From assembly GCF_026151205.1 (NCBI RefSeq), contig NC_087073.1, forward strand, positions 19,434,837 to 19,498,836: 64,000 bases of DNA, read 5' to 3'. Below are positions 3,218-63,103 of this stretch, piece after piece. The notes beneath the pieces were generated by a model. It was not told the DNA's origin. It did not search any database and saw nothing but the letters and a program-made list of their open reading frames with translations. How positions within the stretch are numbered: the stretch's first letter is position 1; every line of letters begins with the position of its first letter. This stretch comes from Bolinopsis microptera. Lineage: Eukaryota > Ctenophora > Tentaculata > Lobata > Bolinopsidae. The translations under genes and the position numbers were made by a program.

Positions 3218-4895
3218 AAAAGTAGGACCCAAGAGCGGAGTCAAATCGCCAGGGTAGGAATCTAGAGCGGAACCCCCTTACCGGAACCATACTATAAGGA
3301 CCCTAGAGTGGAGTCAAATCGCCAGGATAGGACTCTAGAGCGGAACTCCCTTACCGAAACCATACTATGAGGACTCTAGAGCGGTACCCACATGTAAATT
3401 TTGGACCGGTTAGAAATTTGAGATCGGACTGTAGAGTGGACTTGGTCGGAAGATTGAAATCAGATTAGATGCAACTCGTGATTGATTATTATAATAGTGA
3501 GATTAGAATAATTCATGGAGTTGTTGAAGCAGAAAATTGTCCTAGATTATTTATATTATACATCATATCATATTGTAATTTTTAGATACGTTAGACAATT
3601 GTTCGGTATAAACTTCTTCCATTTGACTGAAATATCCTGATGCTACTCTAAAATGCAAAAAGATTCTTTGATAAAGAGGTATAATTATGAACTGGTCGAT
3701 GTGATTTCGCTAAGCGAAATACCGACCAAGTACGTGCATGTGCACTCAAGCAGATCATTTAGGAATGAGGATCTCATCGCGTGACACTTTAGCACCTACT
3801 AAGGGTATCTCATGTTCAGTCTAGTGACAGGGTATGTTCCAGATCAGATCCCATCGCATAGCGGTTCTTGTTAGTGATTTCGATAGTGCAGTATAAATGT
3901 CACAGAGAATTTAGTTTAGTATATCACATTCGATTCCTACTCCTCTTTACAACTATCTACAATATGCTGAGTAACAAGGCCGTCTTCATCCGGGGACAAA
4001 CAGCTGAGATGGGTACGGGAGAACGGACTGAAGAAGGACTACGACGAAGGAATTAACGACCCCCTTACCAATTCCTGGACTTCAGGTCCTGTTCGAGTGT
4101 GGATACGTAGACTTATGCACTATGCAGCTTGCCTTTCTCCCAGTGGACGATGTTCTCCCTTCTTTCATGGAGCTCCTAGATCTTATACCCTCCCACCTTG
4201 GCCTCGACGACTTCCTTAACTACTTCATAAACCTGCCCGCTTTCCTCCGCAATCCTGGAACCTCGTCGACCGGACTACCTGCAACTTCAACTACGCAGAG
4301 GCCTTCAACAGAAAGTTTGCAGCAATGTTGGGACACTCTTACCCAACTATCTGGACCTTTCTTCAAGCCGTCTACATAGAACAGTCCGCTACAGATGAGA
4401 TGATGCTCAAGGAGAGTTACGGGGATGCTCCTCCTGCAAAACGTGCCCGTCAGCGTACCAAGGACAGCCGACTGGCACATTTAGTAAAAGTCTACGACGA
4501 TCATGACATTGTCTCACTCTCCCACCTTGACATGTTGAGGAACGTGATGGTCGAGGAACTGAGTGAACTATTCTAAGATATTTGATTCGCAGTATTAATG
4601 TATAATAAGTTGTATCAATTCTATCATCATTATGTGACGACTATTATTAATCATTGATTAAAAAACATAGCTCAATCTTCAAAACTTTACTCTCAAATTT
4701 CTAACCGCTCTAAAATTTGCATGTGGGTACCGCTCTAGAGTCTTCATAGTATGGGTCCGGTAAGGGAGTTCCGCTCTAGAATCCTACCTTGGCGATTTGA
4801 CTCCGCTCTAGGGTCCTCATAGTATGGGTCCGGTAAGGGGGTTCCGCTCTAGAGTCCTACCCTGGCGATTTGACTCCGCTCTAGGGTCCTACTTT
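3218..4895 (+). mobile_element. MULE-like DNA transposon with ~205-bp inverted repeats
   Basis: Left arm 3218-3423 and right arm 4691-4895 are inverted copies of about 205 bp with some mismatches. Each arm consists of short internal repeats around the motif CTAGAGCGG. Between them lies a decayed transposase C terminus (4032-4576). Long inverted repeats around a MULE-type transposase are typical of Mutator-like elements. A clear 9-10 bp target duplication was not found. It lies inside the larger composite element. Confidence 0.6.
4032..4576 (+). pseudogene. MULE-type transposase C-terminal fragment, frameshifted
   Basis: From about 4032 to about 4240 one frame reads a typical transposase stretch that includes ALAFLPVDDV-like residues (QLAFLPVDDVLPSFMELLD). 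The continuation, WNLVDRTTCNFNYAEAFNRK followed by HSYPTIWTFLQ, is in a different frame from about 4245 to the stop at 4576. The N-YAEAFNRKF and HSYPTIW motifs correspond to the conserved C-terminal part of MULE/FLYWCH-associated transposases, where a T-N-N-EGWH-like motif precedes HP-IW. The frameshift and the absence of the upstream catalytic DDE region make this a dead remnant. The basic tail PPAKRARQR looks like a nuclear localisation signal. Confidence 0.6.
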
Positions 4896-5028: not shown

Positions 5029-6402
5029 CTAGAGTGACAATTTGATTCTCCAAGCAACTCTATCATCGGCTAATATCTTAAGCTTATTAAGATCATTCAA
5101 AGAGTTAAGTTTTAAACCTCTACGGGTCAAATCATTCACAATAATCTTGAACAAATTCTTACGATGCGCACCGACGCGCCCTTTACAGTTTGTTGTGACA
5201 GCAAACTTTAACGCTAATGCAGCGGGGGAGTCATCAGCACTACGCAAGATATGACCTAGGAGCTTCCACCTTGCTTTAGGGACACGATCTGATAGCTTTA
5301 CTGAGTTACATCTTAGGTATAAGTTTGCATTGGATATTGTTCCATGAGGCCAATAAATGTTCAGTAATGATCTAAGGTGTTTTCTATGGCAAATGTCTAG
5401 TTTTTCTAGTGACTTTGCAGTAGGACACCAACTACTGCAATTGTACATGATGATTGATACAATTTGGGCTTCGTATACTGCTATCTTTCTGGTAACGGAG
5501 ATATTCTGCTGAGACCAGATCTTGGTGAACTTATAGAAGGCATTGTTCCCAGCAATGCATCGAGCAGCTATATCACTTTCACTACACAACAATGACCCGA
5601 GAATCTTACTCTTCCGCCAATCTTCATTTCCACGTAACATGGTATCATCACGACCAGGGATTGTTTCCCCAACAGGAGCGAGGAAAACATGGGTAAATTC
5701 TGTTTTCTCTGTGTTAATGAACAGGTTAAACTCCTTGAAGACTTCCTTAGCTATTGGTAGGATAGCTTCTAAGGATTCTTTTTCCACGTTCATGAAGTTA
5801 CAATCATCTGAATACGCTGACTCCAGTGGCATACCTTCATTTGAAATAGGGGGATTGGGTATGTGTGGGGGAGACTCTGCAAGTCGATGGCGTAGTTCTA
5901 TAAGAGCTCCTGCCAGGACAAGAGTGAAAAGCTTGCCGGAGAGACTGTCGCCTTGAAAGGACCCAAGAAGACTCTCGAATACAGCAGATAGTTCTCCTTC
6001 CACTCTGACCTTGAGCATGGTGTTGGTTAAGAGGAGTCTTACTAGTCTGAGGTCGTCGTCTGTGCATCCAGCTTTGACAAGAAGGTTGAGTATTGTCTGG
6101 CGTTTGATTGTGTCAAATGCTCGAGACATATCTATGCCCATCTTGTGATACTGGAAGTGTTTACGCGTGACAACTGATATCAACATCCGCTCAGCCCACA
6201 CTAGATCACCACAACTTCTACCATGTTTGTACCCCGCCTGCGTGCTACCAGTGAAAGCATCAACTTTGTCTTCAATTCTCTTCAGTACAATCATGGATAA
6301 TATCTTACGAGCACCATTTGATAGACATAGAGGTCGTAGACTAGTGACAGGACCAGCTGGTTTGCGAGGTTTCGGTAAGGGTATATGTTTGATATAATAC
6401 AT
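5029..6402 (-). CDS. LINE-type reverse transcriptase, no endonuclease
   Basis: An uninterrupted 457-residue frame begins almost at RT motif 1 (YIKHIPLPKP). It shows DMSRAFD near residue 91, QGDSLSG at 150-156 in place of the commoner QG-SLSP, and YSDD at 197-200 as the catalytic box. A thumb/connection region follows, with a WRLLGHILR-like segment (RWKLLGHILR). A TGA lies directly upstream, and no endonuclease or N-terminal domain is present, so the element is 5'-truncated or RT-only. The reading frame is open and may be recent. It lies inside the composite element, antisense to the MULE fragment. The family belongs to non-LTR retroelements; the clade is not assigned. Confidence 0.75.
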   Translation of the reverse strand: MYYIKHIPLPKPRKPAGPVTSLRPLCLSNGARKILSMIVLKRIEDKVDAFTGSTQAGYKHGRSCGDLVWAERMLISVVTRKHFQYHKMGIDMSRAFDTIKRQTILNLLVKAGCTDDDLRLVRLLLTNTMLKVRVEGELSAVFESLLGSFQGDSLSGKLFTLVLAGALIELRHRLAESPPHIPNPPISNEGMPLESAYSDDCNFMNVEKESLEAILPIAKEVFKEFNLFINTEKTEFTHVFLAPVGETIPGRDDTMLRGNEDWRKSKILGSLLCSESDIAARCIAGNNAFYKFTKIWSQQNISVTRKIAVYEAQIVSIIMYNCSSWCPTAKSLEKLDICHRKHLRSLLNIYWPHGTISNANLYLRCNSVKLSDRVPKARWKLLGHILRSADDSPAALALKFAVTTNCKGRVGAHRKNLFKIIVNDLTRRGLKLNSLNDLNKLKILADDRVAWRIKLSL

Positions 6403-6815
6403 TTCTATTTTCTTTATTTGTCATATGAATCTTTAAAGATCATTCCAAGCGTTATAAAACATGAAACATGTCTCTTATTCAAGTACTAATAATATTTGCG
6501 AATTTAAAATCATCCTAAAGGTCAAATACGAAGAGCTAAATTCATGGCATAAATTGGCATAAATGGAGAATTGGCCAAACAAAATTTCCATTTATGCCAT
6601 GAAATTTCTATGCCATTTGATGAATTTTATGCCATTTTTCTCCATTCTATGCCATTGGTACCCCCCCCCCCCCTACGATAGTATACGTACAGATTCGAAA
6701 TCAGTGCCGTATACCTGTTGTTGAATTACTTTAAAAAGACTAATTTAACTGATTTCACTTCTCCTTTGCTAGAATTTCTATAACAACATTTTCAGATAAA
6801 GCACAGTAAGATATC

Positions 6816-16669: not shown

Positions 16670-18900
16670 ATGTTATCCTGCTTGATTCAAGTAATTATGT
16701 TCAGCATGTAGCTAGTATGTTATCCTGCATGTAGCTGGCATGTTATCCAGCATGTAGCTGGCATGTTATCCAGCATGTAGCTAGTATGTTATCCAGCATG
16801 TAGCTAGTATGTTATCCAGCATGTAGCTGGCATGTTATCCAGCATGCAGCTGGCATGTTATCCTGCATGTAGCTGGCATGTTATCCTGCATGTAGCTAGT
16901 ATGTTATCCAGCATGTATGTAGTATGTTATCCAGCATGCAGCTGACATGTTATCCTGCATGTAGCTAGTATGTTATCCAGCATGTAGCTGGCATGTTATC
17001 CAGCATGCAGCTGGCATGTTATCCAGCATGTAGCTGGCATGTTATCCAGCATGTATGTAGTATGTTATCCAGCATGTAGCTAGTATGTTATCCAGCATGT
17101 ATGTAGTATGTTATCCAGCATGTAGCTGGCATGTTATCCAGCATGTAGCTAGTATGTTATCCAGCATGTAGCTGGCATGTTATCCAGCATGTAGCTAGTA
17201 TGTTATCCAGCATGTAGCTGGCATGTTATCCTGCATGTAGCTGGCATGTTATCCAGCATGCAGATGACATGTTATCCTGCATGTAGCTGGCATGTTATCC
17301 AGCATGTAGCTGGCATGTTATCCAGCATGTAGCTAGTATGTTATCCAGCATGTAGCTGGCATGTTATCCAGCATGTAGCTAGTATGTTATCCAGCATGTA
17401 GCTGGCATGTTATCCTGCATGTAGCTGGCATGTTATCCAGCATGTAGCTGGCATGTTATCCAGCATGTAGCTAGTATGTTATCCAGCATGTAGCTAGTAT
17501 GTTATCCAGCATGTAGCTGGCATGTTATCCAGCATGCAGCTGGCATGTTATCCAGCATGTAGCTAGTATGTTATCCAGCATGTAGCTAGTATGTTATCCA
17601 GCATGTAGCTGGCATGTTATCCAGCATGCAGCTGGCATGTTATCCTGCATGTAGCTGGCATGTTATCCTGCATGTAGCTAGTATGTTATCCAGCATGTAT
17701 GTAGTATGTTATCCAGCATGCAGCTGACATGTTATCCTGCATGTAGCTAGTATGTTATCCAGCATGTAGCTGGCATGTTATCCAGCATGCAGCTGGCATG
17801 TTATCCAGCATGTAGCTGGCATGTTATCCAGCATGTATGTAGTATGTTATCCAGCATGCAGATGACATGTTATCCTGCATGTAGCTGGCATGTTATCCAG
17901 CATGTAGCTGGCATGTTATCCAGCATGTAGCTAGTATGTTATCCAGCATGTAGCTGGCATGTTATCCAGCATGTAGCTAGTATGTTATCCAGCATGTAGC
18001 TGGCATGTTATCCTGCATGTAGCTGGCATGTTATCCAGCATGTAGCTGGCATGTTATCCAGCATGTAGCTAGTATGTTATCCAGCATGTAGCTGGCATGT
18101 TATCCTGCATGTAGCTGGCATGTTATCCTGCGTGTAGCTAGTATGTTATCCAGCATGTAGCTGGCATGATATTCTGCATGTAGCTAGTATGTTATCCAGC
18201 ATGTAGCTGGCATGTTATCCAGCATGTAGCTAGTATGTTATCCAGCATGTAGCTGGCATGTTATCCTGCATGTAGCTGGCATGTTATCCAGCATGTAGCT
18301 GGCATGTTATCCTGCATGTAGCTGGCATGTTATCCTGCGTGTAGCTAGTATGTTATCCAGCATGTAGCTGGCATGATATTCTGCATGTAGCTAGTATGTT
18401 ATCCAGCATGTAGCTGGCATGTTATCCTGCATGTTGCTGGCATGTTATCCAGCATGTAGCTGGCATGTTATCCTGCATGTTGCTGGCATGATATTCTGCA
18501 TGTAGCTGGCATGTTATCCAGCATGTAGCTGGCATGTTATCCAGCATGTAGCTGGCATGTTATCCAGCATGTAGCTAGTATGTTATCCAGCATGTAGCTG
18601 GCATGTTATCCTGCATGTAGCTGGCATGTTATCCTGCATGTAGCTGGCATGTTATCCAGCATGTTGCTGGCATGTTATCCAGCATGTAGCTGGCATGTTA
18701 TCCTGCATGTAGCTGGCATGTTATCGTGTATGTAGCTGGCATGTTATCCAGCATGTAGCTAGTATGTTATCCAGCATGTAGCTGGCATGTTATCCAGCAT
18801 GTAGCTAGTATGTTATCCAGCATGTAGCTGGCATGTTATCCAGCATGTAGCTGGCATGTTATCCAGCATGTATGTAGTATGTTATCCTGCATGTAGCTGT
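16670..18900. repeat. 2.2-kb satellite, 23-bp unit
   Basis: About 95 tandem copies of a 23-bp unit, GTAGCTGGCATGTTATCCAG plus CAT. Variants alternate GCTGGC with GCTAGT and CCAGCAT with CCTGCAT. The block beginning at 16861 recurs at 17643, 782 bp later, which equals 34 units, so there is a higher-order period. The unit is partly self-complementary (CATG...CATG, AGCT). Confidence 0.95.
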
Positions 18901-19968: not shown

Positions 19969-20475
19969 CAGTGTATTGTGAGTATACTGTGAGTGTATTG
20001 TGAGTGTATTGTGAGTGTATTGTGAGTGTTTTTTGAGTGTATTGTGAGTGTATTGTGAGTGTATTGTGATTGTATTGTGAGTGTATTGTGAGTTTATTGT
20101 GAGTTTATTGTGAGTGTATTGTGAGTGTATTAGTGTATTGTGAGTGTATGAGTGTATTGTGAGTGTATTGTATTGATGTGAGTGTATTGTGAGTGTATAA
20201 GTGTATTGTGAGTGTATTGTATTGATGTGAGTGTATTGTGAGTGTATGAGTGTATTGTATTGATGTGAGTGTATTGTGAGTGTATGAGTGTATTGTGAGT
20301 GTATTGTATTGATGTGAGTGTATTGTGAGTGTATTGTGAGTGTATGAGTGATTTGTGAGTGTATTGTATTGATGTGAGTGTATTGTGAGTGTATTGTGAG
20401 TGTATTGTGAGTGTATTGTGAGTGTATGAGTGTATTGTGAGTGTATTGTATTGATGTGAGTGTATTGTAATTGTA
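19969..20475. repeat. Minisatellite, 11-bp unit
   Basis: Degenerate tandem copies of GTGAGTGTATT, with a longer period containing GTATTGTATTGATGTGAGTG. The long open frame on the minus strand (20105-20548) is a by-product of the repeat and is not a gene. Confidence 0.9.
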
Positions 20476-23013
20476 TGATATGCATTATATATTGGAGATA
20501 AAGGTCGGCGCCTAATGTTGAATGTTCCCTATTTTGCCTCCAGGTCACCTCTCCGTTGTTTTTAATGTGGTGTGTTAACCTTTATAAAATATACGTCATG
20601 TGTTTCTTTAAGATAAAATCTCACATCCGCGGGGAAACATTTAGTTTTTAGCGAAATTGTGCCTGAATGCTGATGTTGTTGTTGTTGTGCTTGAAAAAAA
20701 GTTCAGTATCAATTCGGAAGTATTGGGAGAAGTTGGCATGATTATTATAATTTAAATTTAGGCAGGACAAGTTCGGCACTTTGGTCGTTGTACTTTGACG
20801 TGAACGGCGCATGAATAGGTAATAGCTGTATTTATTCATGTATTGGATGAATTTTAAATTCTCATCGTATTATTTTGTGCCGTACCGCATGGCCTCCCGA
20901 CCTGTGCTCCACATTCTGGGAGCACAGGGCAGTTGATAGGGCCTCATATCATCTGATGAAAGACCGAAACCTTATTTTTGTTTTTATCTGCACCATTTAG
21001 GATTAAGACTGAGACTGAATAGATCTGGTTAAACGATTGATATAGAATTCAGTCACATTTTATTTTGCATTTCCAGACATATTATATTAAAATCCTATCT
21101 GTAAAACGATTCCAAAATACAAGCCTTTACAATTTTTGCTGCCATTGTGTCAATACAAACCAAATTGATTCGATTAAGTATAAAAGTGCATTGTCATAGA
21201 TGACCCAAACATTCTGCAGCCTCAAATCCGGCAAAGGGCACTCTATTATGTCCGATGCAGCCGTTTAGAAAGTACATGACCAAAAATATAGATGCAGATT
21301 TTGAAACTTAAAAACGATGAGGTTTTTAAAGCTTTCATTAATCTTTTTTAGATCAGACCAGAAATTTTATCGTTAACCTAATTTTTAATATCCTGGACTT
21401 AAAACAGTTTTCTTTTCTGTGGTTTGTAGGCAGCAGATTAATGATCGTAGTCATATTTATTATGATATGCTGATTATGATCAATCCAGAACTCGTGTTTG
21501 AGCTATTGTGGCCAAATCTCTTGTATTTTCTCGTTAAAAGTACAATAGCAGATACCATTGAAATACCTGGAATTTTGAAACCGGAAACAGGAAACTCGGC
21601 TTTAGATTAGCGTGCCAACAGACATAATCGTTTATTGCATTGCGTGCAGATGAGAAGGAATAAACTCTTAAGAAAAAGGTATCGTTCATTTTCTGTCAGG
21701 AAGCCGAGTAACGAGTAAAAAGGGAGCGCGAGGGTTTGCCGATTATTAATTCTTATTTTTTTCTTAAGAAAAATCTTCTTACTTAAATTGCAGTATTTGT
21801 TTTAGATATATTGAAATTATTCTTATAGTGGCTCCAAAGTTCAAAACTTGTCTCGATCAAACTGCTCATAACCCGTACGTTTCACAAAAGTCCGTTATAT
21901 CCATTTGCATTGTTTACCATGTACGTGTGTGGTATAAAATAATTATACGTCACAATTTTCAGGTCTATACCACTAATGACCATATTGATTCCGTCCGGCT
22001 AATTTCAGCATTTCATCCTGGACATTTAAATGGTTTTATTTACATTCTTATTATGCTGCTGCATTGACCCATATTCACTGATACGTCCGTATATTAGCAA
22101 TTTAGAAACAGCAAATAAAAGGAAGATTGTGATTTATTGATGTCGATCAGGCCACACCGCACAACAGATTAAAATCATTATCCTCTCTTTTATCGAATTA
22201 GACGACCCATTTTTAGATACCAGCCATACACACGTGTTATCACGCAGGCGATTACTTCACCGCAGCTGGCATATACACTGGAAATCAGACCATCTCCTCA
22301 AGCTAAATGCTCAAATATCTTCTTAGACATTTTCGCCCGTTCTACACATGTAATCGACGATTAGATTCAGTCACTTGGTTCTTCAGGACGGATAAAATTA
22401 GTAGAGACTGGACAATCGAGCTGGTCTAAAGCTTTAATGAAACAATTATATTACAAAGCGGGCAATTAAAATCATTGCACAGCCTACTTGTACTTTGCCT
22501 TCTTTTTGACGGTAAGAGAAATCCTATGCTGCTTTATAACATTATGCTGTATCCAACCTTTTGTTTCATGGCACGAAATGTGAGCTTCATCGCGATATTA
22601 CGTAACTTTCTAATTTCCCGTTCGTCTTTCAATATCTCGTACTGCTTGATTCTTCAAGACAATATGGTGCAGTGCTTTAAAAATAAATCTCGTTGTTCTA
22701 TTTTGTGAAATATTGCTTCTATACCGTGTCACTTCCATGACAATCCAGATAGGTGTGTCATCTTATTGCTATCAGATTGTGATCATATTTGCCACTGCAT
22801 TCATCTCTTGAACAACCAAAATGTCTGGGAAATAGCCGGATTGGTATGAATAACAGGATTTACAGTCAAGTGACGGCATATCTAATTCTGATCATTAAGA
22901 CTGCACCTCACATCTTCGTGTTAAATTAGTTGCTATAATTATGAGAAGTGATAGCCGGGGTCCCTATGGTTTTGTGTGGAGTTTTGTAAAGGTGATACTC
23001 TCATTATATACAG
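20476..23013. other. Intergenic, no gene recognised
   Basis: AT-rich. A small hairpin (CTGTGCTCC...GGGAGCACAG) lies near 20900-20935, followed by CTGATGAAAGACCGAAAC near 20955. Nothing else is supported. Confidence 0.4.
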
Positions 23014-27652: not shown

Positions 27653-30445
27653 AGTGCTAATACTGAGGCTTAAGTTTCAACATTTACTTGTCTCTATCAT
27701 TTTAATTTGCAGGTTTGATCGTCTATTAGTAATTTTAATCTCATTTTGAACTTTCTATTTTTTAATCTGATTCGTCCCCCAATTTTAAAGCACATTTGGA
27801 AGTTGATTCTATCTTTATCTTAGTTTTTCTTCATTTTTTTCCAGTTTTATCAGAAATTATTCTGAAATTTGAGAAACTCATTCTCAATCTTGATCTGATT
27901 CTTTTATCCAACATTTCACCTTTCGTTAACTTGGACTCTCCTTTTATCAAACTCTAAATACTCCTTTAGTTGCTCTCACATTTGTATAATACGCGATAGT
28001 AGTAGTCGGATCCCAACCGTTCTAAAAGGCTATCTCGTTAGCTTTTCGTGTTAAAAGCGATTTCTCAACGGTTATCACCTCTCTAGATGATTCTTAAAAC
28101 ATTTGGACACTATTGCATTTTTGAAAAAAATGCAATAGTGGTGTTTTCGGCCACACCCTTTTTCAGGGTTTCGCGGTAAGTCGAATTTTTGTATTTCAGC
28201 CCAGGAAGGTCTTAAAGACTATTCCGATACACCAAAATGTGCCTAATAGCCACATTTATTTACAACTTATCAAGCAACATATACTTTAAAATGCTTCGTT
28301 TCGGAAATATGACCGAAAAACGGTTTTTGGCTAGATGCAGTTCATAATTTCCGTGATTTTTGGCATTTCCGCCTAGGAAGATCGTAGAGACTATTTTGAT
28401 ACACTAAAATGTACACAATGGCCACATTAATATACAACTTATGAAGCAACATATACCCTAAAAGGCTTATTTTCGGAAATGTGGCTGAAAAACGGATTTT
28501 TGCCGAGGGAAAAATGACAATATTCACAAATGGGCTATTGGACTGTTAACTAGAAAAGTCTTAAAGATATTTTTTGTAACAAGATGTAAGATGACTCACT
28601 TTGTGTCCAGAAACACCTAAAAAATTGGAGAATGATCTACTTTATTGGGCATCTCTCTTAATGGGCCAGGCCAGCAGCATATTTGTCTTACGAAAGGGTA
28701 ATTTTTCAAAATTACGGTTTCTTAAGGTCAAAGGGTCGGCTGCTAACAGCAAATTGTTTGCAATTACCGACCCATATCATCATATAGTTATACTGAAAAA
28801 CGCTCACTTTAGGAGTCATCAGCTAATAAGTTTAACTAGTACTACTGCATGATTTGTGAAAACTCCAACAATTAATTTTCATTGGCACCAATTTAAATAG
28901 AATGTGTGCCAGACCAAAATTGAAAATTCAACTTCAAACTTTTTATTTATTCATGCCATGAAACCATGATATATGTACCAAAATAAATCGGCACTGGATC
29001 CGGGCCAGACTGTTGCTTGACCGCTGACCAGTACCCCACTTTATAATTATGATTGATTTCGCTGCCTCGACCAATATTGGTCTGTAATCCCTGGATTGAG
29101 ATCTGTTGGCTGCAGTTTAATTTATCTAATTTCCTATAATACCGCAGTGGTTTGGTTCCCACTTCAGAATGACCCCATATTCTTTTTTTCAGTCGCATAG
29201 ATTTTCTCATAGCATGATATTGCGTATCATTCCCTCGTTTTTAATCAAATGGTGACTGGTTAGTTCTTCTGTTATTACAGCTGTGAGCTGCCTCGAGATA
29301 TTTTCTGGGGCATGGGCTATAGTGTGTTATTGCTGATACACAGTACTGAGTACAGCCTACTTTAATTATTGACCATTACGGAAAGTGGTGAATTCGGCAC
29401 AAGCTCCTAACAGCTCTGCCGTTCGGAGCGTGTGTATTATACCTTATAGTAGATTCTTGTGAATTTAGTATACCTTCTAGTAAATTCTTGTGGATTTAGT
29501 TCAGGCTTCCAGTAACAAATTCACCTTTATCTAAGATTGTACATTCCGTGCTACTATTTGGCGTTTATGATTTGGTTTCTGGAAATCTTTCTTGTTGCAG
29601 CCATGTTGCACATTTCATTTTGGTGTAATTTTGATAGCACTTCTTTTTATTTCACTACTCGAGCACCAACTTATTCCGCTTATTTGTTGAATTACTGATT
29701 GTTTGTACTGAACGATTGTTAACTGAGTAACGCTAGGTGAATGTGACGCCGTCCACACATTTACACGCGTCTAAACTGCAGGGGTAAGTCTATATAGTAT
29801 ATTCTAATATATTTCTGTGACCGACTCGAGCGCAAGAATGAACCATTCTTCATAAACATTTTTTGCATTTTATAGGTTACTGTCCTTAATGAGAAGCAGT
29901 GGACTGTGGAGTTGTTAAAATAATGAAATATTTGCGATCTATAATTACCATATATAACAGATTTAGAACTTAGAAATTATAGATCTACAGGAATGGCTCA
30001 TTCTTTCGCTCAAACAAGTCACACCTCAATAAATTCATCAATGAATTTCTGGGCTTATTGGCGTCTTTTACATTGAAATATTAAACGATTGCTGTGAGAA
30101 TATGCCAGACAATTGTTATTTTCAACAAACGCTACCAATTCATAGACAAATAAACAAAGAGGTCTGATTCATGTGACAACTTATACAATTTATACCCTTA
30201 TCAGTTACTACTTTGCATATTTTTAGTTGGTGTCGCCGTTATTTATTCACCACCAAAGTTTTGTAAAATTTTGTTGCCACTTTGATGCTGCTGAGGTACT
30301 CAAGTCCATTCTGATTTTAAAAGTTTGTATTTCTATGATTTTGTAAGGTGCATGGTTTTAACATTATTAGCTATGTTTCCTAAATTTGTATATTGAAAGT
30401 CTTGGTAAACTTGGTAACGCATCAATTACCATACTTATGCTTTAG
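27653..30445. other. Intergenic, diverged tandem duplication
   Basis: Contains the ~175-bp repeated segment listed separately at 28195-28515. The remainder is AT-rich with no recognised gene. Confidence 0.4.
28195..28515 (+). repeat. Diverged tandem duplication, ~175-bp period
   Basis: About 28195-28345 and 28368-28515 share the order AGGAAG, GACTATT, GATACA, CCACATT, ACAACTTAT, AAGCAACATATAC, CGGAAAT and GAAAAACGG, with many differences. This is an old direct duplication or two diverged copies of one repeat family. Confidence 0.6.
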
Positions 30446-30571: not shown

Positions 30572-37435
<6,864 letters not shown>

Positions 37436-44479: not shown

Positions 44480-46804
44480 ATAAATTTGGAACATGGGCAC
44501 ATCGCAGTATTGGCCGTATTTGAGTGCTGGGAAGCCTCAATTCGGTTTTCTAAGATGGATATGGCCGTAAGCTAGGCCTAGGAGCCATCAAAAGTCGTAT
44601 AAAATTACCCATGGAATGACCAGAAATGAACGAAAATGAACATTCTTCTCAAAGTGCTCCGAGTGGTTTAAAATGGGTCGGAAAGTGTTTATATTGGTCC
44701 TAGGACCACTCAAACCAAGGTTGGGAATCACTGCACGTCTAGAACCGATGTTACCTATGTTCCAAAATGTTCCAATTTTGGGACAATAATCCTCCTGAGA
44801 ATCCAGATTTTTGGAACATGGGCACATCGAAGTATTGGCTGTATTTAAGTGCTGGGAAGCCTCAATTCGGTTTTCTAAGATGGATATAGGTAAAAACTAG
44901 GCCTAAGAGCCATCAAAACTCAAATAACATTACCCAGGTTCATGGAATGAACGAAAATGAACTAAAATGAATATTTATTTTTAATTGTAGTTGACGAAAT
45001 GAGAGTCTCCACTCAGTGTGTTAAAACATAATTCTTTGTCGACGTTTCGGCTACATGCCTTTGTCATAAACAGGACGTACTGAAAACTTACATAGCTCAA
45101 TAAATGTAATAGATTTGTAGTGTTGTAATTAGTTTAAATAAATGATTGACCCACTCATAAGAGCAAAACAAGATTACCAGTAAAATGAATATTGTCCTAA
45201 AAATGCTCAGAACGGTTTAAAATTGGTCGGAAAGTGTTTATATTGGTCCTAAGACCACTCAAACCAAGTTTGGGAATCACTGCACGTCTAGAACCGATGT
45301 TACCTATGTTCCAAGATGTTCCAATTTTGGGACAATAATCCTCCTGAGAATCCAGATTTTTGGAACATGGGCACATCGAAGTATTGGCTGTATTTAAGTG
45401 CTGGGAAGCCTCAATTCGGTTTTCTAAGATGGATATAGGTAAAAACTAGGCCTAAGAGCCATCAAAACTCAAATAACATTTATACCCAGGTTCATGGAAT
45501 GAACGAAAATGAACTAAAATGAATATTGTCCTAAAAATGCTCAGAACGGTTTAAAATTGGTCGGAAAGTGTTTATATTAGTCCTAGGACCACTCAAACCA
45601 AGTTTGGGAATCACTGCATGTCTAGAACCGATGTTACCAATGTTCCAAAATGTTCCAATTTTGGGACAATAATCCTCCTGAGAATCCAGATTTTTTCCGT
45701 TCACCCTTTTGTAAAAAGGCAATAGTTCATTTTCGATCATTCCATGAACCTGGGTAATGTTATTTGAGTTTTGATGGCTCTTAGGCCTAGTTTTTACCTA
45801 TATCCATTTTAGAAAACCGAATTGAGGCTTCCCAGCACTTAAATACAGCCAATACTTCGATGTGCTCATGTTCCAAAAATCTGGATTCTCAGGAGGATTA
45901 TTGTCCCAAAATTGGAACATTTTGGGACATAGGTAACATCGGTTCTAGACATGCAGTGATTCCCAATCTTGGTTTGAGTGGTCCCAGGACCAATATAAAC
46001 ACTTTCCAACCAATTTTAGACCGTTCTGAGCATTTTAGGACAATATTCATTTTAGTTCATTTTCGTTCATTCCATGAACCTGGGTAATGTTATTTGAGTT
46101 TTGATGGCTCCTACTATGCCTAGTTTTTACCTATATCCATCTTAGAAAACCGAATTGAGGCTTCCCAGCACTTAAATACAGCCAATACTTCGATGTGCCC
46201 ATGTTCCAAAAATCTGGATTCTCAGGAGGATTATTGTCCCAAAATTGGAACATTTTGGAACATAGGTAACATCGGTTCTAGGCATGCAGCGATTCCAAAA
46301 CTAGGTTTGAGTGGTCCCAGGACCAATATAAACACTTTCCGACCAATTTTAGACCGTTCTGAGCATTTTTAGGACAATATTCATTTTTGTTCATTTTCGT
46401 TCATTCCATGAACCTGGGTAATGTTATTTGAGTTTTGGTGGCTCGTAGGCCTAGTTTTTACCTATATCCATCTTAGAAAACCGAATTGAGGCTTCCCAGC
46501 ACTTAAATACAGCCAATACTTCGATGTGCTCATGTTCCAAAAATCTGGATTCTCAGGAGGATTATTGTCCCAAAATTGGAACATTTTGGAACATTGGTAA
46601 CATCCGTTCTAGACATGCAGTGATTCCCAAACTTGGTTTGAGTGGTCCTAGGACTAATATAAACACTTTCCGACCAATTTTAAACCGTTCTGAGCATTTT
46701 TAGGACAATATTCATTTTAGTTCATTTTCGTTCATTCCATGAACCTGGGTAATGTTATGCTACTTTCGATGGCCCCTAGACCTAGCTTGCAACTATATCC
46801 ATCA
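44480..46804. repeat. Inverted array of ~330-bp repeats
   Basis: About three copies in one orientation (44480-45690) and about three in the other (45745-46804) meet at a short unique centre (45690-45745). The block GGAACATGGGCACATCG marks the unit at 44488, 44813 and 45362. Its complement starts at about 45861, 46196 and 46527, so the spacing is ~325-335 bp once the 205-bp insertion at 44976 is removed. Copies are highly similar. The 70-80-residue frames inside are translations of the repeat, not genes. Confidence 0.9.
44976..45180 (-). mobile_element. 205-bp retroposon with 13-bp target duplication
   Basis: Neighbouring array units lack this segment, so it is an insertion. TAAAATGAATATT occurs on both sides (44963-44975 and 45181-45193) as a 13-bp target duplication, a length typical of retrotransposition. 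Read on the minus strand it contains CAACACTAC, then CCTG, a GGC-ATGTA-GCC hairpin and GAAACGTCG. It has no coding capacity. The hairpin-GAAA layout is like that at 11445 and 57815. Confidence 0.75.
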
Positions 46805-50984: not shown

Positions 50985-51598
50985 GCTACTAAAAATTGTG
51001 GGGGTTTTTAGGCAAAATAACAACTTTACTAATAACAACTTCACTAAAATTAATATCTAACTGATAAAATTTTGCGGTGTGAGAAATCAGCTGCAATCGG
51101 TCAACACAACGTTCAATATAAAGCTCAGCAACAAAGCTGTACAAAAGATATTTAAAAAATCGTAGTCCGTAGCAAAATGGATAATTTCTAAAGCATGTGC
51201 AAATATAGCAAGCACAGCAGTGCAATTTTGAGATTTATAGTGAAGCAAAACATTGAAACTATTCTTACTTTAGAATGGATAATGATACAAAATAAATTGC
51301 TATGATCGAGTAGATTAATAACTACAAATTGGTAAATAAATTAGAAATAAACAATGATGGTTAAAAAAAGAGGTTGAAATAGTATAAAATGCTTTAAGAT
51401 TAAAAGCAATAATCAAATGGGCAACTTTCTATGCAAAGCATTTAAAAGCCACTAATTTCTGGTTATAAATTGATAAAAAGGGTCACTGTATTCTCGACGC
51501 TAATAATCGAATAAGTTAAATTGAAAATAGCATTATAATAAATTAATTAAAAAGATACTCGATGAATTACCTAATACTTACGAACAATTGGAGAGTAC
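50985..51598. other. Selenoprotein H 3' flank
   Basis: Lies between the ODAD2 start and the SECIS of the next gene. AT-rich, with no other feature seen. Confidence 0.4.
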
Positions 51599-51669
51599 GG
51601 GATTAATATCAAGGTTCAGCCCTCTAAAAACTAGATTTAAACTAAACCCATCATATAAAAACAATCCCC
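51599..51669 (-). promoter_or_regulatory. SECIS element (form II) of selenoprotein H
   Basis: On the minus strand, nine bases after the stop codon, GGGATT and AATCCC can pair as helix I. They enclose the quartet strands ATGA and TGAT. Helix II pairs GGGTTTAG with CTGAACCT, including two G-U pairs. An apical AAA then precedes a mini-stem, TCTA-GTTTT-TAGA. The AA lies 12 bases after the ATGA strand, as in known eukaryotic SECIS elements. This recruits SBP2 and the Sec-specific elongation factor to recode UGA. Confidence 0.85.
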
Positions 51670-51677
51670 ATAACCCC

Positions 51678-52034
51678 TTACTTCATCTTCTCCTTCAGCA
51701 ACTCCACAAAATCATCATCCTCAACGAACTTGAGCCTCCTGGGTGGTCCCAGCTTGATTCCAGACCAAATCTCAGTAACCTCCTCTCCGTCATGATAAGA
51801 CACCTCAAAACTCTTGGATCTGGGTTTAGTGGTGTTGATGAGGACCGGAATGTCGGAATGTTCAGTTGAGATGAGTTTGTCGAGGCGAGTAGCGTGGCGT
51901 TTGTATACGGATCAGGACTTGCAGTGCTCGATGTAAAAGTATTTGGTGAGGTTTGTGGGCTCTGGCTCTTCAGAGGAGGTTTTGACCTTCTTTTGAGGGT
52001 CTGCTACAGTGGATTTCTTCTTTCGTTTGGGCAT
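51678..52034 (-). CDS. SELENOH: Selenoprotein H (UGA = Sec at residue 41)
   Basis: Selenoprotein H is a nuclear/nucleolar, thioredoxin-like, DNA-binding redox protein. The 118-residue frame starts with a basic leader, MPKRKKKSTV, that fits nuclear entry. It then has the redox motif HCKSU, a CxxU with the in-frame TGA at 51912-51914. After the TGA the family signature continues: VYKRHATRL, NTTKPRSKSFEV and IWSGIKLGPPRRLKF. These match human SELENOH (VY-R-A, NPTKPRRGSFEV, WTGIKKGPPRKLKF). A SECIS lies just 3' (51599-51669). It is a single exon. Standard ORF calling sees only the two halves, because the TGA reads as a stop. It lies between ODAD2 and HSCB on the same strand. Confidence 0.95.
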
Positions 52035-52458: not shown

Positions 52459-53010
52459 TCATCTAAGCATGAACAACTCGCCCTGTTTATCAATCCTATC
52501 TCTAGTTTGTAGCAAAAATTTAACTTTAGACAACCGCTCCGCTGCCATTTTCAGATCATTATCATTAAAGTGCTCTTCGAATTGAGTGTAAAGCACAGCA
52601 ATAGCATCCTCATTAAGCTGCTTAAGTTCGAGTAAAGTTGTACTATCCTCGCACATTTCTATCTGGTCATTAAAATCCATCATATCTGACAAAAACTCCA
52701 TATCCATCGTTTTGATATTTGGATCAAAGTTGTTAATCTTGAGGAGTAACCTGGCACGGCAATAAGGATCTTTCAAACATTTGTTAGCTTCGTTAATCAG
52801 AGCTGAGTTTTTGGAGGCATGCTCCTGTTCTAGAGCAGAGGAAGTGGCGTGTTTATCAGGATGAAACTCTACTTGAAGTCGTTTGTAAACACGTGACAGT
52901 TTGGCCAGGTCCAGGCTAAAAGTGGGAGTCAGGGAGAAGACCTCGAAATAATTGCTGGATGTGAGGGGAGGTATTTTGCTGAGCAATCTGCGAAACAGGT
53001 GGAGCAACAT
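52459..53010 (-). CDS. HSCB: Iron-sulfur cluster co-chaperone HscB, mitochondrial
   Basis: HscB (DnaJC20) delivers the ISCU scaffold to the mitochondrial Hsp70 and stimulates its ATPase. The frame is one exon of 183 residues. The N terminus MLLHLFRRLLSKIP is basic and hydrophobic, like a mitochondrial presequence. A J domain follows: NYFEVFSL, then KRLQVEFHPDKH with the HPD tripeptide near residue 52. The C-terminal helical domain has the LLLKINNFDP and FLSDMMDFNDQIE segments, the latter matching the family ISCU-binding helix pattern. Human HSCB (235 residues) has an extra N-terminal CxxC zinc finger that is missing here. Confidence 0.93.
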   Translation of the reverse strand: MLLHLFRRLLSKIPPLTSSNYFEVFSLTPTFSLDLAKLSRVYKRLQVEFHPDKHATSSALEQEHASKNSALINEANKCLKDPYCRARLLLKINNFDPNIKTMDMEFLSDMMDFNDQIEMCEDSTTLLELKQLNEDAIAVLYTQFEEHFNDNDLKMAAERLSKVKFLLQTRDRIDKQGELFMLR

Positions 53011-53546
53011 AGCTGAGCGGTTTTCAGGAAGTTGTTACATGTCCTCACATGCTCCTCAATTCATAGTGTCCTCATTGAACATAGGATTCCTAAAGGGAGG
53101 TTGGATATTATTGTTCTAGGCTCAAACAGTGTTTGAAAAATATGAAATTGTGGACCAATAATTTTAGAATTCAGATGATATTTTTATCCGTACATACAAC
53201 TGATGCGACAGTTGGTATTTCTTTTACAAAAACGATCAGATTGATTTCCAAACAAAACACTTTAGAAAAATTTCAACGTCACGTCACATTCAGAGATCAC
53301 AATCTTAATTTTACTGTATAGCAATCGTTACCTCAGGGGTATTAACAAATCATAGAATTAAAGGTATATAAATAAATTAGCTAGATTTGAGCCTAGATCG
53401 AGCCTTTTATAAGGAGGCCGAGCCATGACAAACTTGTTAATTTGTTACTTGAAATTTGAATCAAACCCTCTTATAATAGCTAGCTAAAATATTTCAGATT
53501 AAGAGTCAGTTTCTCAGAGCAGGTGAATGAAGTCCAGTATAAAACA
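53011..53546. other. Intergenic, HSCB to COX5B-like gene
   Basis: AT-rich, holding the HSCB 5' region and the neighbouring 3' UTR. Nothing further recognised. Confidence 0.4.
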
Positions 53547-59455: not shown

Positions 59456-60634
59456 GGTTAATTGACAATGTCAATTCATGGCAGCTCGGCGCGCGGCACA
59501 GTAACGCATCGCGCTACAATTCTAAGGATTTCAAAGCGAAGGCGCTTTCTAATGTATCCTTTTTGAATAAATTACAATCTTACCTATTTTGGTGTTAAGA
59601 TATTTATATTTTTCCATATCAGTGGTTTTCCTGTGCCAAGTTGATATAGTGATGAAAATCACAAAGCTAAAGTTACTGGGCCGCGCTCAGCCTGTCATTC
59701 CGCCAAATCTTTATTTATTATGTTTATTTCTTTATTTATTATGTTAATGAACATAATAGCCTGGGGTCCTCAGGTAAAGCTATAAAGGTGCCATAGTGCA
59801 AAGAAACTGCTGATCATGCTAAATATAGTGCTAACTGCTGCTAACTGCTGCTGACTCCTTCACCTAACCATGCGCTTTCGCGCCACTTCGGGCGCGCTTG
59901 TTTCACAAGTCAAAGCTAAAGTTAAAGTTACTGGGCCGCGCTCGTGAGGCGGGCGCGCGCGTGAGGCGGGCGCGCGCTACTGCAAGCGCAAGGGCTCTGG
60001 ATAGAGCAAGCTGACTCCTGTGTCGGACATCCACCAAATTTTTCGGACACTTTTGACCCCAGGAATCCTTACCGTTAGGGGCCTAACTTCGGAAGTAAAA
60101 GAAATAGAAACGTCTGGTTTTCAACAAAATGTCCGTCTCGTAAAACTAAAGTTAGCTCCCCAGGAGCCAAATTCAAAACAATGTAGATTTTGAATTATCG
60201 CGAAAAGTCATATTTTAGGCCTTATAAAACTGCGCAGCTTTAACTTTGCGGATTCTTGTTCTCTGATTGGCTGAATCGTATCACGTGATACCTGGTACAA
60301 TTGCATTCTTGGATTAATTGCAAAGCGTGCAAATGCAATGAACTAACGAGCACGCGCAGAGTTCAACAAGCTGTGAAAAGGCGATCACCCTGTATAGTAA
60401 TATCGCTAGCCGGTAAGGTCTGCTGGGTTACTATACGAAAAATATATGTTTTTCTGCATTCTGCAGATGTTCAGGTAGAACCACCTCTACTTATACCTGT
60501 GGATTGGTTACACTTACAGCTACCTAGATGCAACATTGTTTTAGCTTAGAGCTATTACATATTATTAATCTAACTAACTGTGAATTCTTGCAAACCTTCA
60601 TAGCAAACCTTACTGGACAGATAGACTTACTCAA

Positions 60635-63103
60635 ATGTCTAAAGCACTCAGAGAAGCAAAGAGATTATATATGAAACGTAACACCTTGTCGAACAAAGCT
60701 GCCCTAGATCATGCCAAAGGTTTGTTTGATGAAACTAGGAAAAAAGAGTGTCAAAAGTTCATTTTAACGAAAACTAACAATCTCAATGCCTCCCAATGTA
60801 CAAAGTTTTGGAAAGAATTCAATCGGATGTTTTCTAAAAAACGTGACAACAAGGTAGAGCCCTTCAAGGAAGCAAGTGGTGATCTTATCACAGATTCTAA
60901 AGACATTGAAGAAATTCTATTTGATAGCTTCTTTGCAGGTAAACATTTGCTGGAAAAAGGAACAGATTTTGATGCAAAGTTCTATGAAGATGTCAACAGA
61001 ATCTATAAGGAATGTCTTGAATCTAATGAAAGTGAGCCCCAAGACTCTACCTACACAACCGATGATGAAGAGGATATGCTAAATGGGGAGATAAATAAAG
61101 CTGAACTTCAACACTTCTTCAAAAATTATCAAGCAGCAGGAAAAGGCTTTGATAACTTTGAATTCCATCCCGTAATGTTTAAAAAATTGGGAGGAACTGC
61201 CTGTGAATGTATTCTTGCATTGTTGAATTCATGTTTGAAGACTGGCCACTGGGTTTGGGATATTGCTGATGTAATATTTCTCAAGAAGGAAGGCAAAACT
61301 GACTACAGCAAGGCAGGATCATATCGACCGATCTCTATAACATCCTATATTGGTAAGGTGTTTGAACAAATAATTGCTAATAGATTAGAAGAGCACCTTA
61401 GAAAAAAGGGCCTAAGCGATGAGTATCAAGAGGGGTTCACAAAAAAGCGCAACACTGTTCGTTATCTAAACAGACTGGATAATGATGTTCGTAATCATCT
61501 TCAGAAGAAATACACGGTCATCTGTCTCTTCATAGATTTTGAAAAAGCTTTTGATAGTGTTTGGAAAAAAGGTCTGATGAAAAAGTTGTCCGACTTTGGA
61601 GTATCCGGAAGTATGTGGAGACTTATAAACAGTTTTCTCTTCAACAGAAAAGTTCGTCTTGTATTCAACAACTATACTGGCTTCATTAGAGCATGTAGAG
61701 AATTTGGACTACCACAAGGTTCAGCATTATCTCCAATTCTCTTCAAATTCTATTTGCATGACCTTGCACAGGATCTCACTCTCAACCCAGATATAGGGGT
61801 TTTCAAGTTTGCAGATGATGGAACATTAAGGGTCAGAGGTGAAACAACACACCAGTGTCTTCTCAATCTACAGATGACATGTTATGCTATCTATAAATGG
61901 AGTATAACATGGAGAATGATAATAAACTGTGATCCCGGAAAAACTGAACTAATTGGATTTGGAACTGCAGAAAACGATGAAACGCTTCTTCCATTGTCAT
62001 TTCGTCTTGGTAGCAACGAGATCAAGTTCGTCGAAAAGACCAAAGTACTAGGCTTGATAATGGATAGAAAGCTCACCTACATCGAGCACGCAAAGGATAT
62101 TAACAGAAAGATACTTGGCCGGTGGGCTACAATTTGCAAGTATACAAACCGCAACTGGGGATTCAGACAACATGTCATTGTAAGGCTAATTGAAGTTCTC
62201 ATATATTCACGAATCCACTATGCTGGAACTGTCTGGATCAATAATAGAAGTATCAAAGAAGTTGAAAGTGCTTGGTATAGGACTATAAAAGCAGCTTTGG
62301 GTGCAGTGTTCAATGTAAGACTAACTACAGCTGAAATGATACTTGGTGTGTTGCCACTCAACATATCAAACAAAGTGAACTCAGTGAAGCACATCCTTAA
62401 ACTGAATATATTCCCGAATAAAGAGGATCCACTGAAACACCTTATTGATGACCAAATGAAATCAGGCAGTTACAGCCCACTAACTGGAAAGGTAAAAGAT
62501 GTATTTCAGTTTTTGTTGTGGAAATCTTCGATACTTCCTGAACACTTCACTAATGAGGATCTAAAAATCATAAATAACCATGATCTAGAAAAACTCACCT
62601 GTCTATCAGTAAAAGGATGCAGCTACAGTAAATCAGTGATGAAACATTACAGTGAACAGCTTTGGCAATCGTCCATAAACAGCCAGTACCAGCTGGAAGG
62701 GTATACAGAGGCACCTACAGTGAGCGCCACAAAGCTGAAGTTTCCACCTAAAACATCAAGGCAACTTGAAACCTTGTTTCTAAGCTTGTTCTATCCGAAC
62801 AACATAATGAATGAGTTTCTACACCGCTTCAAAAGCAGTAAATTTGATTCTCCACTGTGTGATTGCAGGCGAGGGGCTCAAAATTCACTTCACCTGCTTA
62901 CCGACTGTCCTGATGTACAAGCAGATAAAAGGAACAAAATGAGTGAGCTTCTTGAAAGACACCCATTCCACAACATCAAAAACCAAGGCTATGGTGGGAA
63001 CTCAATGTTGATATCATGGAGCAGACTTCGTGAGTTCTTTGATTTAGCACTTGAAATAACAAAGGATGCAGAAGAATTCCTTCGAATAGAGATAAAACTA
63101 TAA
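60635..63103 (+). CDS. LINE reverse transcriptase ORF, intact, without endonuclease
   Basis: An uninterrupted 822-residue frame. Residues before ~75 form the linker usually found between endonuclease and RT; upstream in-frame codons add KPYWTDRLTQ. RT motifs: SYRPISITSYIGKVFE, then FIDFEKAFDSVW, LPQGSALSP (359-367) and the catalytic FADD (392-395), then the thumb. The C-terminal part has CDCRRGAQNSLHLLTDCP, a CxC-x7-H-x4-C zinc knuckle-like motif common in CR1/Jockey-type LINEs. The apurinic endonuclease that should precede it is missing: a stop lies just upstream and no frame is seen back to 59600. The copy is therefore 5'-truncated yet otherwise undamaged, suggesting recent insertion. Confidence 0.85.
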   Translation: MSKALREAKRLYMKRNTLSNKAALDHAKGLFDETRKKECQKFILTKTNNLNASQCTKFWKEFNRMFSKKRDNKVEPFKEASGDLITDSKDIEEILFDSFFAGKHLLEKGTDFDAKFYEDVNRIYKECLESNESEPQDSTYTTDDEEDMLNGEINKAELQHFFKNYQAAGKGFDNFEFHPVMFKKLGGTACECILALLNSCLKTGHWVWDIADVIFLKKEGKTDYSKAGSYRPISITSYIGKVFEQIIANRLEEHLRKKGLSDEYQEGFTKKRNTVRYLNRLDNDVRNHLQKKYTVICLFIDFEKAFDSVWKKGLMKKLSDFGVSGSMWRLINSFLFNRKVRLVFNNYTGFIRACREFGLPQGSALSPILFKFYLHDLAQDLTLNPDIGVFKFADDGTLRVRGETTHQCLLNLQMTCYAIYKWSITWRMIINCDPGKTELIGFGTAENDETLLPLSFRLGSNEIKFVEKTKVLGLIMDRKLTYIEHAKDINRKILGRWATICKYTNRNWGFRQHVIVRLIEVLIYSRIHYAGTVWINNRSIKEVESAWYRTIKAALGAVFNVRLTTAEMILGVLPLNISNKVNSVKHILKLNIFPNKEDPLKHLIDDQMKSGSYSPLTGKVKDVFQFLLWKSSILPEHFTNEDLKIINNHDLEKLTCLSVKGCSYSKSVMKHYSEQLWQSSINSQYQLEGYTEAPTVSATKLKFPPKTSRQLETLFLSLFYPNNIMNEFLHRFKSSKFDSPLCDCRRGAQNSLHLLTDCPDVQADKRNKMSELLERHPFHNIKNQGYGGNSMLISWSRLREFFDLALEITKDAEEFLRIEIKL

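Follow-up and report, generated by a model that had tools for sequence, protein, structure and literature searches.

Does the reading frame that a single TGA interrupts on the minus strand of this locus encode a selenoprotein, and is the hairpin that follows its stop codon the SECIS that would decode the TGA? We analysed the locus within a 64-kb window, that is, the whole stretch of DNA under study, and conclude that it is almost certainly a functional Sec-containing selenoprotein H (SELENOH) gene of an animal. The frame, the TGA, the stop codon and the SECIS were found where the initial annotation had placed them, with the following positions:

51678-52034, minus strand: SELENOH coding sequence, 118 residues followed by a TAA stop, translated with TGA as U
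51912-51914, minus strand: in-frame TGA read as Sec, residue 41, at the end of the CxxU box (CKSU, residues 38-41)
51678-51680, minus strand: TAA stop codon of the SELENOH frame
51599-51669, minus strand: form II SECIS with helix I, quartet, helix II, AAA and mini-stem, from Rfam SECIS_1, fold and descriptor scan
51651-51654, minus strand: 5' quartet ATGA of the SECIS, with 23 nt between the stop and the quartet
51609-51611, minus strand: 3' quartet TGA of the SECIS

The translated frame reads MPKRKKK...EKMK, with a basic N-terminus (MPKRKKK) and the start context TTAGTTAACCATGCCC. Over its 118 codons it contains the single TGA, no further in-frame stop and no frameshift, and it needs no intron. 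GC3 is 0.63 before the TGA and 0.60 after it, compared with an overall GC of 0.28 in the 3' flank (51001-51570); since the values are alike on both sides of the TGA and unlike that of the flank, both parts of the frame look like coding sequence. The standard code breaks it into 40 and 77 codons, and for this reason it is absent from the program-made list of ORFs of at least 110 aa. Such a split, together with the absence from that list, makes plausible the earlier claim that ORF callers miss the gene. Very probably, the locus is a normal animal gene that gene finders easily overlook because a UGA stop codon serves for selenocysteine; read correctly, it is a selenoprotein gene that routine ORF calling would cut short or leave out.

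For the profile searches, the TGA was read as a residue with Cys standing in for Sec. The NCBIfam model TIGR02174 (SelT/SelW/SelH family) scores 42.8 bits over residues 35-114, above its cutoff of 34.2, and thereby assigns a SelT/SelW/SelH domain to the protein; Pfam Rdx reaches 19.3 bits on the same frame, below its cutoff of 22.6. Local alignment with human SELENOH, in a provisional reference sequence, runs over nearly the full length with 50 identical residues out of 108 aligned positions, and scores 211 against a mean of 27 and a maximum of 49 in 500 shuffles (z 41). The TGA aligns exactly with the U of C-x-x-U in this reference sequence, in agreement with the proposed alignment to SELENOH with U at residue 41. 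The selenoprotein H identity given in the initial annotation holds, as the TIGR02174 score above cutoff, the position of the CxxU box, the type of the SECIS and its geometry all agree. An AlphaFold model computed from the single sequence has a pLDDT of 42.8, too low to inform on the thioredoxin-like fold. A full-text literature search with SELENOH-like peptide strings found no paper, and no close relative of the locus was confirmed in IMG/VR (9 stretches matched the pattern, 0 confirmed) or among GTDB genomes (44 matched, 0 confirmed), as is expected for an animal gene.

The element behind the stop codon carries the AUGA and UGA core strands and the AAA of a SECIS. Counted on the sequence, 12 nt separate the quartet from the AA and 26 nt separate the AA from the GA, with GA/GA in the quartet and the AA unpaired; both spacings are within the limits of 10-13 and 15-39 given in the accessible text of PMC2375036. 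Beyond the AAA, the fold contains a mini-stem, UCUA/UAGA, with a five-base loop, which makes the SECIS one of form II. The core strands, helices I and II, apical AAA and mini-stem that had been described for this element are thus all seen in the Rfam alignment and in the fold, in which part of the quartet is drawn as ordinary pairs because the energy model has no non-Watson-Crick core. Rfam SECIS_1 (RF00031) aligns end to end with positions 51662-51600 of the minus strand at 29.0 bits, with an E value of 0.0015 on 701 bases and of 0.14 on the entire window. The score is below the gathering score of 35, a curated score cut-off and not a structural feature; the match is absent from the default Rfam scan.

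The SECIS exceeds what is expected by chance. Its folding energies are -28.3 kcal/mol for the 96-nt stretch containing it (z -3.01), -20.8 kcal/mol for the 71-nt element (z -2.95) and -12.8 kcal/mol for the upper 50 nt of the element (z -2.52); of 200 shuffles in each case, 0, 1 and 4, respectively, were as stable. A descriptor scan of both strands of the window, using the primary pattern and energy limits in the accessible text of PMC2375036 plus our own helix filters, reduced 1638 raw pattern matches to 11 candidates, the most stable of which is the SELENOH SECIS at -22.2 kcal/mol. Dinucleotide-shuffled windows, 100 in number, contain 6.0 candidates on average, and three of them contain one as stable; none contains a candidate of that stability with the ATGA/AAA/TGA motif and 10 or more upper pairs, these strict criteria having been set after the candidate was seen. 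This control ignores the placement of the SECIS on the right strand and directly behind the right stop codon. Two other scan matches flagged by the strict criteria were rejected: the one at 51792 (plus strand) is antisense within the SELENOH coding sequence and the one at 28780 (minus strand) is devoid of helix I (+0.4 kcal/mol), and neither is in the Rfam list.

The rest of the window contains several recognizable features, and no tRNA gene was found in it by ARAGORN:

52459-53034, minus strand: uninterrupted HscB-like co-chaperone ORF, upstream neighbour of SELENOH, from PF07743, TIGR00714 and PDB HscB chains
50125-49712 and 49306-48857, minus strand: two ORF pieces with Arm repeats, downstream of SELENOH
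35005-35931, plus strand: PIM-like protein kinase in one ORF, with PIM2 and PIM1 as closest PDB sequences
5029-6420, minus strand, and 60584-63103, plus strand: two long ORFs that contain reverse transcriptase domains
16702-18899: tandem array of a 23-base unit, 95.6 copies
45723-46803: tandem array of a 331-base unit, 3.3 copies
19970-20478: tandem array, reported periods 11 to 49 bases
3224-3384 and 4730-4890: two arrays with a 73-base unit, separated by about 1.3 kb

The HscB-like ORF matches PF07743 at 43.7 bits and TIGR00714 at 77.7 bits (cutoff 46.75), and its PDB matches are HscB chains. Human HSCB has an N-terminal cysteine-rich stretch; by eye, the ORF is without one, and a further upstream exon is possible. 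The closest PDB sequence to the Arm-repeat ORF at 50125-49712 is ODAD2/ARMC4 (E 3.2e-31). The reverse transcriptase ORFs likely come from LINE-type elements. Taken together, the HscB-like, Arm-repeat, kinase and reverse transcriptase ORFs point to a ciliated animal as the probable host. The 73-base units of the two arrays look reverse-complementary by eye, and the arrays may be the termini of a mobile element.

Several readings compete with a functional SELENOH gene. The locus might be a decaying SELENOH copy, for instance a retrocopy without introns, with a TGA and a SECIS that are merely inherited. Indeed, its frame and SECIS form one uninterrupted stretch, compared with vertebrate SelH, in which two exons share the 3' UTR and the last one carries the SECIS, and five mammalian SelH pseudogenes are tabulated in the portion of PMC3316567 available. 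In addition, the 1200 bases that follow the stop contain no AATAAA or ATTAAA poly(A) signal, the weaker variants within 800 bases including AATACA at 51492. Decay is nonetheless very improbable in view of 118 codons with neither a frameshift nor another in-frame stop, a GC3 that is coding-like on both sides of the TGA, and no second SELENOH copy found within the 64-kb window; moreover, the adjoining HscB-like ORF is likewise uninterrupted, so the missing intron is not peculiar to the SELENOH gene. Even less credible is a TGA bypassed by splicing or due to a sequencing error, accompanied by a SECIS-like hairpin formed by chance. Although 30 frame-keeping GT...AG pairs of at least 40 nt span the TGA, splicing at any one of the pairs listed would cost the message 33 codons or more, the Sec codon and some or all of the CxxU box among them, and splice bypass was discarded on this ground. 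As to the hairpin, an equally stable SECIS of the same motif occurs nowhere in 100 shuffled windows, and the element occupies the correct strand immediately behind the stop.

The family itself could be mistaken, since the curated model that the protein passed, TIGR02174, spans SelT, SelW and SelH together. The alignment score of 29 with human SELENOW, which shows no excess over 500 shuffles (maximum 40), is far from the 211 obtained with SELENOH, and the predicted protein has a basic N-terminus and TKPR..SFEV and GIK.GPPR.LKF stretches in common with human SELENOH; assignment to SELENOH over SELENOW is made on these two provisional human sequences, the only family members compared. A PDB sequence search with the frame gave 0 matches at E up to 10. 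We consider the chance that the protein is a SELENOW or a SELENOT to be practically negligible.

We thus retain a functional SELENOH gene, for which a mechanism of decoding can be proposed. The SELENOH mRNA would carry UGA at codon 41, and the SECIS just after the stop would bind SECISBP2, which, with eEFSec and Sec-tRNA, would let the ribosome insert selenocysteine at this codon. The predicted product is small; its N-terminus is basic, and a thioredoxin-like domain would hold the CxxU redox box. UGA recoding, the thioredoxin-like fold, a nuclear or nucleolar location and a redox role are all predicted by analogy with the family. In human HAP1 cells, according to the available text of PMC9599142, SELENOH is among the transcripts whose UGA read-through is clearly SECISBP2-dependent, with mixed recoding-efficiency ratios of 0.93, 1.51 and 0.55 for three measures. 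The available part of PMC13088273 describes CxxU as a redox box and states that SELENOH enzyme activity drops upon mutation of Cys and Sec; the Cys/Sec mutant retained both binding to PPARalpha and cooperation with it, so that not every SELENOH role needs the CxxU box (PMC13088273).

How near to the stop codon does the SECIS lie? The gap from the TAA to GGGGAUU is 8 nt, the first G being unpaired in the fold, and pairing sets in at the 9th base past the TAA, as "nine bases after the stop" had it. The quartet is at +24, and the distance from the UGA to the quartet is 257 nt. Mammalian UGA-to-SECIS distances range from 207 to 5207 nt and the experimental minimum is 51-111 nt, as given in the accessible text of PMC3316567. 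In human GPX4 the SECIS stem-loop extends from +35 to +128 relative to the stop (as cited in the part of PMC1769511 available), so that it comes soon after the stop in both genes, with a first paired base at +9 here and a stem-loop start at +35 in GPX4. The available text of PMC7409322 reports SECIS elements at an average of 76 bases from the stop in the 3' UTRs of ciliate GPx genes, which are without Sec, and relates that the SECIS of fowlpox GPx4 is inside the coding region. In the claim that the SECIS is unusually close to the stop, the shortness is real (+9), but its weight was overstated, given a UGA-to-SECIS distance within the mammalian range and the fowlpox precedent. A literature search found no survey of stop-to-SECIS distances in invertebrates, and "unusually" therefore carries no figure. 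The placement is short yet inside what decoding tolerates, as the mammalian range and the GPX4, ciliate and fowlpox cases indicate, and the spacing is mildly unusual. With frame, stop and SECIS all within about 440 bases, the locus offers a compact natural case for how near the stop a SECIS may lie. A ribosome reaches some way past the stop codon at which it stands. Using this reach, one may speculate that a ribosome terminating at the TAA overlaps the base of helix I (+9) and not the quartet (+24), and that each termination could open the foot of the SECIS, reset SECISBP2 binding and couple termination to the next recoding event; we regard such a coupling as unlikely.

Several invertebrates are already known to have a selenoprotein H, that of Drosophila being BthD; the locus adds one more gene and opens no new kind of biology. 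SelH is listed for Drosophila and Ostreococcus (PMC2375036, available part) and is among the selenoproteins of Ciona in the accessible text of PMC2874816. As a selenoprotein it is recorded in Trichoplax (2), Nematostella, Capitella and amphioxus (PMC3473315); the accessible portion of that source lists none for Amphimedon or Lottia. The present gene differs from the vertebrate SelH of PMC3316567, as far as the available text describes it, in that its frame and SECIS form a single unbroken stretch, the SECIS beginning 9 nt past the stop. Compared with the eukaryotic form II SECIS of RF00031, its score is below the gathering value, whereas the ATGA...AAA...TGA core, helices I and II and the mini-stem are the same. 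Like other metazoan SELENOH genes, it has its SECIS in the 3' UTR, and its predicted product shares the CxxU box, the basic N-terminus, a similar length and the SFEV and GPPR.LKF motifs with the human SELENOH reference sequence.
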